From Pseudanabaena sp. FACHB-1998 (GTDB taxonomy: Bacteria > Cyanobacteriota > Cyanobacteriia > Pseudanabaenales > Pseudanabaenaceae): a stretch of 38,902 nucleotides of DNA. The stretch spans positions 1-38,902 of the forward strand of contig NZ_JACJQA010000047.1 of the NCBI RefSeq assembly GCF_014696355.1, in the 5' to 3' direction. How positions within the stretch are numbered: the first letter of the stretch is position 1; each line of letters begins with the position of its first letter. The notes beneath the pieces were generated by a model. The model did no database searches. It saw only the letters and a list, made by a program, of their open reading frames with translations, and had not been told where the DNA came from. Below, piece by piece: positions 32,590-35,529 of the stretch. Made by a program: the position numbers and the translations under genes.

Positions 32590-32787
32590 GAATAGAATTT
32601 CAACTCGTAATTAGGAAACTGATTATTGTCAACTTTACTTGTTTTAGGATCTCTTAATAAATATACATATCCGATCTGTAGTGGTCTACTAAGTAAATAT
32701 GTACTTAAAACGAAAAATGAAATGAAAAATTTATATATATTTTAATTGATAAAAATTTAGCTAAAAACAAGTTACAAAAAGTAAACA

Positions 32788-32970
32788 AAATAAATGGCTT
32801 GCTCTTGTTAAGTATAACTACTTATTAAGAGCAAGCCATTTATTTGTATAAACTGTTTTTAAATGGGTTTTGAAATTCAGAATCTTTAAATAGGCTGATT
32901 CCGTTTGAATGATCATATTTTGCTAGATCTTATACAAAAACTGGGATCGCTTAATATTTTCTTTATAGTT
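32788..32970 (-). ncRNA. Candidate small RNA, tandem copy 1
   Basis: Conserved block 32873-32970 followed, on the minus strand, by a hairpin with perfect 19-bp arms (32827-32845 and 32788-32806) and a T-rich tail. Within the block, ATTCA (32875-32879) pairs with TGAAT (32906-32910), and GAATC (32880-32884) with GATTC (32897-32901), with a CGTT bulge and a 12-base loop. TATGAT on the minus strand (about 32918-32913) could be a -10 box, but that would start transcription inside the block. Strand is inferred from the terminator-like hairpins; the structure itself is strand-symmetric. Confidence 0.4.
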
Positions 32971-33145
32971 TGAACTACCTCTTTAGAATGAGACTAACTA
33001 CCGATCCCGAAACCCTTGAGTAATCAAGATTTTGCTGTAAATAAGCAAAAATACTGATTTTGCCACCTATTTATCCCAGACCTAGCGATTAAGGCTCGTT
33101 TTTTTAAGAGTTAAATATGAAATTTGTGAGAACGGCAATAAAAAC

Positions 33146-33327
33146 AAGTGGCTTCCTAGAGCTAGGTAGAAATTACCACTTGCTTTAGGAAACCACTTAT
33201 TCTTTTTGTTTTTTATTAAGTTGGTATTTAAATTCAGAGCCTATATATATGCTGGCTCCGTTTGAATAATCATATTTTGATAGAAAATCGCACACTTTGG
33301 AGATCGCTTAATATTTTCTTTACGGTT
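33146..33327 (-). ncRNA. Candidate small RNA, tandem copy 2
   Basis: Matches copy 1 without gaps (73 of 98 positions by my count), offset 357 bases. The same stem forms with ATTCA (33232-33236)/TGAAT (33263-33267) and GAGCC (33237-33241)/GGCTC (33254-33258); two pairs differ from copy 1 and both remain paired. The loop length (12) and CGTT bulge are kept. On the minus strand a 13-bp stem with one G.U pair (33198-33186 and 33158-33146) is followed by GTTTTTATT, a good intrinsic terminator. Length and order are nearly the same as in copy 1. Confidence 0.45.
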
Positions 33328-33555: not shown

Positions 33556-33610
33556 TAAACCGAAAAAGAGAAATGCAGCGCGAAGCGCTGCATTTCTCTT
33601 TTTTGGTTTA
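33556..33610 (-). terminator. Palindrome downstream of the amylase gene
   Basis: A 26-bp stem with one G.U pair (33556-33581 and 33585-33610) around GAA, with GCAGCGC next to the loop. On the minus strand the trailing arm ends GGTTTA after CTCTTTTTC, a U-rich run. Confidence 0.75.
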
Positions 33611-33620
33611 AGGTATACCC

Positions 33621-33657
33621 AAAAGTAGAAAAAGCGAAACTCACTTTCTCTACTTTT
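33621..33657 (-). terminator. Stem-loop at the amylase stop codon
   Basis: AAAAGTAGA-A-AAAG (33621-33634) pairs with CTTT-C-TCTACTTTT (33644-33657), one mismatch, 9-base loop. It overlaps the stop codon (33650-33652) and ends in TTTT on the minus strand. Two hairpins in a row follow this gene. Confidence 0.65.
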
Positions 33658-35125
33658 TGATCCATACAGAGACTGAACCACCATTACAGCGAAACTCTGC
33701 CCAACCTTCTTCATTGGTGATCACAGGCTCATCTACCTGCTCGGTGATATCGATATAGGTACTATTAGGCTGTCCGACATTCATCCATTTACGACCTTCC
33801 TCACTATTACTTAACACCACGGCCATACCGCCAGCATGTTCTTCATCTCCTAATCTTGTCCAGCCAATCGTATTGGGATGGTCGAAATAATCAATCTGCT
33901 CACCATAGGAATAGGTTTGACGTGCAAAAAGAAACTTATCCAACCAGCCTTGATGACTCTCCATCCAAATTTCATACTCGTTACCATCTTTCCCCTTATC
34001 TTTGTAATGTGCGCCGTAATAATCAGCATAAAAAATACAAGGATATCCTTCTTGTCGCAATAAAATTAGCGCATAGGCAAGAGGCTTAAACCAGTCTTCG
34101 ACAATTGACTCCAAGGATTGTAATGGTTGCGAATCATGGTTTTCAACTAAGGTAACTGCAAGGGTTGGCTGGACTTTGACTAAAGTGTTTTCAAAGATTT
34201 TACTGAGGTCATAGTCTTGCCCAGCTTGACTAGCTAGATGAAAATTCAAGTGCAAAGGCGCATCAAACAGATCGATCTTACCCTCGGTAACCGCAATGAA
34301 ATTATTTAAAGCTTCTACTTCGTAAGACCAATATTCTCCCACCGCAAATAAATCTCGTTTAGCATGGTGACGCACATGCTCTAACCATTCTGGAAAGAAA
34401 CTCGCTGATACATGCTTAACCGCATCAAATCGAAATCCATCAACCTTGGTTGTATCATAAATCCATTCTCCCCAATATTTAAGTTCTCCCTGCACTTCAG
34501 AATTTTGCATGTCAAGGTCGCAACCCATCAAATAATCAAAATTCCCCTTCTCGAGATCAACGTCATTATCAAAGGATTTTCCTTTTAGTAGATAGATAGC
34601 ATCTTCCCCTTCGTTGTAGGCGTTGTAATCAATCCCATCAAAATGCCACCAATGCCATTCCATCGTAGAGTACTTACCCTTACGTCCCTCAAAGGTGAAA
34701 TGAGTCCAAGCTTTGATCTTTTGATATTCGCCGACTGTCTCATGGCGATTTTCCGTACTAAAGGGTGTAGCTTCTACTTCTTCTGGATGGTCCGCTCCCA
34801 TCTTGTGATTAAACACTACATCAGCATAGATCTGGATTCCTGCTTTCTGAGCGGCTTGGATAGCACGAATATATTCGTCTTTAGTACCATATTTAGTTCT
34901 AATGGAACCTTTCTGGTCAAATTCTCCAAGGTCGAATAAGTCATAAGTGCCATAGCCTACATCCATACCACCCGCAGTACCTTTGTATGCAGGGGGTAGC
35001 CATAAGGAAGTAATACCAGCTTTTGCTAATTCTTCAGCTTTTTCGGCTAACTGATTCCATAAGCTTCCGTCATCTGGCAGATACCAGTGGAAGTACTGCA
35101 TCATCACGCCATTCTGATTAGACAT
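33650..35125 (-). CDS. Alpha-amylase, GH13 subfamily 5 type
   Basis: A 491-aa glycoside hydrolase without a signal peptide, hence cytoplasmic, likely cleaving internal alpha-1,4 bonds of glycogen or maltodextrins. It opens with GVMMQYFHWYLPDDG, typical of the bacterial liquefying/cytoplasmic amylase group. The four GH13 regions are visible: DVVFNHKMGAD, GFRFDAVKHVS (nucleophile D), FAVGEYW (acid/base E) and LVENHDSQP (transition-state D). A C-terminal beta domain follows, ending in GSVSVWIKK. I start at ATG 35125 (MSNQNGVMM) with GAGA nine bases upstream; the frame extends to 35152. Confidence 0.92.
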   Translation of the reverse strand: MSNQNGVMMQYFHWYLPDDGSLWNQLAEKAEELAKAGITSLWLPPAYKGTAGGMDVGYGTYDLFDLGEFDQKGSIRTKYGTKDEYIRAIQAAQKAGIQIYADVVFNHKMGADHPEEVEATPFSTENRHETVGEYQKIKAWTHFTFEGRKGKYSTMEWHWWHFDGIDYNAYNEGEDAIYLLKGKSFDNDVDLEKGNFDYLMGCDLDMQNSEVQGELKYWGEWIYDTTKVDGFRFDAVKHVSASFFPEWLEHVRHHAKRDLFAVGEYWSYEVEALNNFIAVTEGKIDLFDAPLHLNFHLASQAGQDYDLSKIFENTLVKVQPTLAVTLVENHDSQPLQSLESIVEDWFKPLAYALILLRQEGYPCIFYADYYGAHYKDKGKDGNEYEIWMESHQGWLDKFLFARQTYSYGEQIDYFDHPNTIGWTRLGDEEHAGGMAVVLSNSEEGRKWMNVGQPNSTYIDITEQVDEPVITNEEGWAEFRCNGGSVSVWIKK

Positions 35126-35529
35126 TGTTAAATTCTCGATGTAATGTATCAAAAGAAATTTAATTATATTAGCAACTTAAAGCTTTAATCTATACACAGA
35201 GAGCTTTCTAGACTTCTAATCCCCCAAATAAATATACAAATCATACATCAAAAATTACATAGGAGGTTCTTATACTCGATCTAGGCTAGAGCTAGTACCC
35301 ATAAAGTTTTGAGCCTATTTTGATTTAGTTTTAACGAGGTGTGCGATCGCATATATATCATCTAAATACTTATTGTTACATTTTGTGTCGTAATTAATCA
35401 ATTCACTCATTTTGTTCATGAAATCGACCATGACTCACCACTATAAAAACCCTATTTGAAGAAAGTTATAAAAATCGCAGGTAACCATAGATACTCCCTT
35501 CTCGTCGAAAAAAATAGACATATAAAACC

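Follow-up and report, generated by a model that had tools for sequence, protein, structure and literature searches.

A candidate small RNA family of cyanobacteria with a conserved hairpin and its own upstream element, present as a tandem pair in Pseudanabaena

Described small RNAs of cyanobacteria and the present locus

Few small RNAs (sRNAs) are known to span the cyanobacteria, Yfr1 and Yfr2 among them. As far as the accessible parts of the cited papers go, Yfr1 is characterized by the motif CACUCCUCACACC (PMC4734099), and Yfr2 by a motif which is nearly complementary to Yfr1 (PMC6778093). In the same partial view of the literature, PsrR1/SyR1 is an RNA of 131 nt from the region between fabF and hoxH (PMC2662882, PMC6202907), SyR2 has a length of ~140 nt and lies between apcC and prmA (PMC2662882), Sye_sRNA1 of S. 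elongatus UTEX 2973 comprises ~200 nt and is located beside psbD or cobB (PMC6091082), and Nc117 is an RNA of 102 nt between slr0550 and slr0551 (PMC5946031).

The window analyzed here, which is the whole stretch of 38,902 nucleotides from Pseudanabaena sp. FACHB-1998, contains two similar units on the minus strand (Table 1). We consider it probable, at roughly 85%, that these represent an independently transcribed, trans-acting sRNA family with two tandem genes at this locus, duplicated within the genus; no transcript, target or regulator has been observed. A narrower statement, that each unit is an RNA gene which is conserved, structured and specific to one strand and which has an upstream element and a terminator of its own, can be regarded as established at the level of sequence comparison.

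The present RNA resembles PsrR1/SyR1 in being a free-standing, intergenic cyanobacterial sRNA gene conserved beyond one genus, Yfr1 and Yfr2 in being a class-wide cyanobacterial sRNA with short conserved motifs, and Sye_sRNA1 in its wide conservation. Lengths, loci and printed oligonucleotides nevertheless speak against identity with PsrR1, SyR2 or Yfr2, and identity with Sye_sRNA1 is likewise rejected. The motifs of Yfr1 and Yfr2 are other than those found here, and Sye_sRNA1, with its ~200 nt, contrasts with the ~77 nt of the S. elongatus-like match of the present RNA. Eight printed SyR1/SyR2/Yfr2 oligonucleotides share runs of 8-13 bases with 186 RNAs of the family, compared with 7-13 bases for three shuffles of each, and for three of the eight the run is one or two bases longer than in the corresponding shuffles. 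PsrR1 differs in length, locus and its oligonucleotides (at most 9 consecutive bases shared); for SyR2 the longest shared run has 11 bases (8-10 for the shuffled oligonucleotide), and for Yfr2 13 bases (Yfr2a_for; shuffled 8-11), the remaining oligonucleotides reaching 8-10. Nc117 was compared by place only, not by sequence.

It is quite possible, though not what we expect, that the RNA is already known under another name or number, for example as an unnamed entry in the supplementary tables of PMC4734099, a study whose accessible part gives 627 candidate segments for Nostoc PCC 7120, including 151 that have homologues in at least 10 genomes. Against this, Rfam 15 returned no match at its gathering score over the whole window, in agreement with the first-pass annotation of this DNA, which had recognized no named RNA, and nothing fitting was found in the literature, the search being confined to open-licence papers. 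When 1051 bases and 11 loci were scanned permissively against Rfam, all matches at the RNA stayed below threshold, such as Thr_leader with 30.7/55 bits at locus L067.

Two tandem units and the structure they share

Block 32873-32970 agrees with block 33230-33327 at 73 of 98 positions, a count which reproduces that of the first-pass annotation, whereas the top ungapped 98-nt match in dinucleotide shuffles of the 1060-nt spacer (n=200) reached only 53, with a mean of 48.8. The 21 bases at 32945-32965 recur without mismatch at 33302-33322, as had also been noted, and by their position we infer them to be an upstream promoter element and no part of the RNA. Start to start, the units lie 357 nt apart, and on the minus strand they can be aligned from ahead of the 21-base block through the T tail of the long hairpin. 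Together with the covariation of these hairpins within each set of orthologues, this alignment contradicts the earlier description of the two 3' hairpins as unrelated; as judged from it, they are homologous. The order in each unit is upstream element, -10-like TATGAT, 5' hairpin, AU-rich linker and long 3' hairpin with T tail. Each gene would possess its own promoter and intrinsic terminator and yield an RNA of ~125 nt, in which an AU-rich linker is predicted to join the 5' hairpin, whose 12-nt loop is conserved, to the terminator hairpin.

Table 1. Features of the two putative RNA genes, in window positions; the RNA ends of both copies are inferred.
Feature	Positions	Strand	Basis and remarks
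Copy 2 upstream element GTAAAGAAAATATTAAGCGAT	33303..33323	-	~-61 to -41; consensus matching over class loci
Copy 2 -10-like TATGAT	33269..33274	-	Weakly conserved over class
Copy 2 inferred RNA, ~125 nt	33138..33262	-	From -10-like box, conserved hairpin and terminator; no transcript data
Copy 2 5' hairpin, 7 bp, 12-nt loop	33235..33260	-	Covariation
Copy 2 3' terminator-like hairpin	33144..33201	-	T tail ~33136-33144; whole-RNA fold of 22 copies
Copy 1 upstream element ATAAAGAAAATATTAAGCGAT	32946..32966	-	Consensus matching over class loci
Copy 1 -10-like TATGAT	32912..32917	-	Weakly conserved over class
Copy 1 inferred RNA, ~126 nt	32780..32905	-	Same basis as copy 2; no transcript data
Copy 1 5' hairpin, 7 bp, 12-nt loop	32878..32903	-	Covariation
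Copy 1 3' terminator-like hairpin	32788..32845	-	27-nt arms, 93% complementary, T-rich tail; whole-RNA fold of 17 copies

The inner stem of the 5' hairpin had been described as 5 bp long, with two positions swapped between the copies and still paired; the stem and the swapped pairs are confirmed, and its length must be corrected to 7 bp in each copy (CGGAATC/GATTCTG and CGGAGCC/GGCTCTG on the minus strand). Conservation was assessed in an alignment of 41 copies (44 were extracted, 43 remained after that of genome G030 was dropped, and the G014 pair, identical to the G013 pair in the tree, was omitted). Here, 99.7% of 287 cells are paired (286/287), compared with 91.8% after shuffling, and compensatory double changes affect 5 of the 7 pairs in 40 cells, compared with 10.4; none of 500 shuffles matched the paired share and the double changes. 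The number of further pair types in these copies (6, shuffled 7.1) is not above chance. A broader alignment with 95 distinct rows, which was fitted to the structure and drew half its rows from an exact loop pattern, contains 97 double-change cells (24.9 shuffled; 0/500 shuffles), without an excess in the number of pairs concerned (5, shuffled 4.5), and in all 95 rows the second pair of the stem is an invariant G-U.

An outer ATTCA/TGAAT stem, proposed in the first-pass annotation, can be drawn in both copies and is rejected: none of its five pairs covaries over the 41 copies, where its pairing (92.7% of cells) is the same as in shuffles (92.8%). Its bases follow the -10-like box and precede the inferred start. 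Folds of the whole RNA comprise 29 pairs for copy 1 (17 rows), 12 of them with double changes, and 21 pairs for copy 2 (22 rows), of which 10 show double changes, 8 of these in the 3' hairpin; in a simple hairpin scan, the 3' hairpin of copy 2 scored 13, under the cut-off of 16. When single copies were folded, the minus strand barely surpassed shuffles (z of -0.87 and -1.15), and the plus strand gave -1.53 and -2.72, so that copy 2 folds better there. We reject an RNA from the plus strand despite this better fold, because the second pair would become A-C in 95 of 95 rows and the T tails are on the minus strand.

The hairpin loop follows the motif AGC..A.AUAAA, in which both edges are conserved and the middle is free. 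Over 98 rows, the loop has 12 nt in 89 cases, 11 in 6 and 10 in 3, and no conserved reading frame was found among them. A small peptide starting at the ATG that the U-A form of the first pair creates can be dismissed, as this ATG is present in just 52 of the 98 rows. At loci L065, L067, L071, L075, L100, L102, L180 and L194, the loop hairpin is doubled inside one RNA.

How such an RNA might act is a matter of inference. We lean slightly toward the exposed loop and the linker pairing with mRNAs as the route of trans action, and hold an action on mRNAs to be more likely than one on a protein. The latter reading stays open because the loop middle is free, the G-U is invariant and hairpins are repeated: the RNA would bind or titrate a protein, with the AGC..A.AUAAA hairpin as a recognition module that is repeated within the RNA, or by gene duplication, for capacity. 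Under a strict rule, 35 of 186 loci have a second hairpin of the same type within one RNA, although at L143, if not elsewhere too, this looks like chance. CsrB/RsmY-type titrating RNAs likewise combine repeated hairpins and a fixed loop motif, GGA, in a single RNA; the loop described here is not GGA, and there are seldom more than two hairpins. With a single hairpin at most loci, no known protein partner, and a loop count that leans on loci chosen by exact pattern, we regard protein binding as unlikely, if well worth keeping in mind. More doubtful still is the fuller proposal of an ancient cyanobacterial sRNA with a near-private promoter element, whose modular hairpin would bind an unidentified RNA-binding protein and whose capacity would be tuned by hairpin repeats or, as in this genus, by gene duplication.

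Distribution and flanking signals

The sRNA reading of the first-pass annotation, a duplicated small RNA under structural selection, is upheld, but its scope of two local copies proved far too narrow. Neither of two outcomes that it had named as refuting, the absence of homologous structures from related genomes and a stem that breaks in related copies, was met with. BLAST gave matches in 28 of 38 family genomes, two of which (those in G030 and G007) are not this RNA, and a first covariance model (R1, E<=0.1) found matches in 35 of the 38. Among the 26 genomes of the genus, 24 carry the RNA by this model, 17 in two copies and 7 in one, and two gave no match; some of these assemblies are highly fragmented. 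On a tree built from 43 rows, each of the labels copy 1 and copy 2 can be explained by two changes, and by one in 55% of bootstrap trees, with none of 500 shuffles as low. This fits a single early duplication within the genus, but support is weak for many branches and the bootstrap had not converged. The tandem pair offers a natural experiment on sRNA duplication.

Beyond the family, R1 matched 120 of 388 class genomes at E<=0.01, and a second model (R2, 98 rows) 251 of 388 at the same threshold, among them 211 of 334 good-quality genomes, and 123 of 160 genera; 137 of the 388 were without a match to R2. Part of the larger figure arises by construction, because R2 includes rows from many of those genomes. 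A set of 52 matches rests on R1 alone, at loci retrieved through R1 matches. If an sRNA is spread on this scale with its own conserved element, this would suggest a core regulatory circuit, testable in model strains. In a phylum-wide sample, R2 matched 112 of 386 genomes, all of them in the class, the number sampled outside it not being established. The genome itself contains the two copies only. The exact loop pattern occurs in at least 115 stretches, a set whose loop conservation depends on this very selection; among the matches listed, 114 have cyanobacterial titles and the genera include Nostoc, Fischerella, Calothrix, Microcystis, Trichodesmium, Spirulina, Symploca and others.

A search of 13 genomes at E<=5 found nothing in G008, G030, G002, G050, G069, G041 and G175, only chance-level matches in G038, G062 and G353, and matches at 3.8e-4 in G048, 0.018 in G067 and 0.024 in G250. 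Two genomes of family f2 (1.7-1.8 Mb) and two of family f14 gave no convincing match. One contig carrying the RNA (L133) is titled Candidatus Gracilibacteria and is probably a mis-binned cyanobacterial contig. At four loci of Fischerella/Calothrix type (L116, L125, L153 and L196), the model match extends over 129-132 nt, compared with ~118 nt, and the spacing between element and hairpin is longer; these are perhaps differently regulated paralogues.

The class-wide counts of promoter and terminator signals were made on 186 loci which are distinct over 120 nt, relatives included. A strong hairpin lies 3' of the RNA motif in 126 of 184 loci and in 0 of 184 shuffled ones, with a T-rich tail in 115 of the 126. 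This hairpin score replaced an initial terminator rule that was met at 110 of 184 loci, but also at 20 shuffled ones and 68 on the reverse strand. A simple promoter/terminator scan missed the proposed promoters and gave no terminator. The -10 box is clear in the genus Pseudanabaena; across the class, conservation is confined to its first T (1.9 bits) and A (1.0 bit), and TANNNT occurs at the expected place in 34 loci compared with 24 in a control window, so that a class-wide -10 box cannot be claimed.

Across 81 rows from outside the family, the consensus reads aTaAAgAAAa.aTTA.GaAat - spacer - Ta.....agtTc-AAAtGgGGTCAGCcaATATAAAGACCcTaAa.aTaAA, and at least 13 of 16 consensus bases of the upstream element are present in 152 of 186 loci, usually 63-65 nt ahead of the hairpin; a control window gave 0 of 183. 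With at most one mismatch, the element is found in the genome itself at the two copies only. Of its sites in 15 other genomes, all 3 exact ones and 6 of the 7 with one mismatch coincide with RNA loci; two-mismatch sites in these genomes lie mostly off RNA loci, and a reversed control pattern also occurs. By these counts, the element is nearly private to the RNA loci. The sole one-mismatch site elsewhere in the 15 genomes (G073:C68:19315-19335) may belong to a further gene that the same regulator controls. Genomes G061 and G088 each have two separate RNA loci, with an upstream element of its own at each.

The element contains the half-sites TAAAGAAA and TTANGAAA, 11 bp apart. We infer that, at -61 to -41, it would bind a dedicated activator, and an 11-bp direct repeat would suit a response regulator of the OmpR/PhoB type, although no regulator has been observed. 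HLR1, the element of RpaB-regulated promoters, has a full consensus of two TTACA-type repeats and can be set aside, as both half-sites differ from these. Two TTACA-type repeats also make up the HLR1 examples in the accessible part of PMC6331805. The SphR Pho box consists, as far as the accessible part of the source goes, of 8-bp repeats CTTAACCT that are arranged in tandem and separated by 3-bp linkers (PMC1906773). Read on the other strand, the element (CNTAATNT-TTT-CTTTAT) has a Pho-box-like period and some likeness, but its second base is free and its orientation reversed, so that it would be Pho-box-like, though probably not a Pho box as defined.

Neighboring genes and probable independence from them

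Within the family, aat is near the RNA in 22 of 28 loci (~1.5 kb flanks) and clpB in 8 of 28. At 167 loci, the same-strand upstream neighbors include genes for DUF3493 (62), a HAD hydrolase (55), YceG/MltG (30) and DUF3727 (19). Downstream, 31 of the 167 have a same-strand AA_kinase+PUA gene, proB (one counted upstream), and a DUF1565/SLH-type gene is found on the opposite strand in 45, mostly downstream, with four counted upstream. The clusters were named from one representative each, and the 167 loci are not all independent, because named loci and genomes partly overlap on the same contigs.

These neighbors bear on the reading of the RNA as a cis-acting leader or attenuator of the downstream gene, proB in many genomes and aat here. 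It draws on the same-strand proB-type genes, which in L234 and L238 begin immediately after the terminator, and on the precedent of sRNA read-through into a gene, the 'actuaton', as described in the accessible part of PMC5386190. Yet the downstream gene varies among genomes, aat is oriented against the RNA in L012, the convergent DUF1565/SLH gene stands at 45 loci, and the two serial copies each have their own element and terminator. Since there is no fixed neighbor, the genes found including aat, clpB, proB, the convergent DUF1565/SLH gene and others, and since aat runs against the RNA at one locus, the RNA is not simply a leader, and we consider a cis-acting role improbable. A functionless mobile or repetitive palindromic element, suggested by tandem copies and large hairpins, is scarcely credible given just two copies in the own genome, both retained in 17 of 26 genus genomes, recurring neighbors over the class and compensatory changes.

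For the trans-acting sRNA that we favor, the conservation of the structure beside different genes and its doubling away from proB in the genus are arguments in support. The criterion for such an RNA, a promoter and a terminator of its own that are independent of the neighbors, is met, by sequence alone. Following transcription, the RNA would be released as a separate sRNA and would then act in trans, both steps being inferred.

An alpha-amylase gene (33650-35152) lies between the RNA pair and clpB, among the 28 family loci at the present one only, within the ~1.5 kb flanks considered. Right behind it, two further long inverted repeats at 33556-33610 (26-nt arms, 96% complementary) and 33621-33657 (17-nt arms, 88%) are probably the terminators of the amylase gene.
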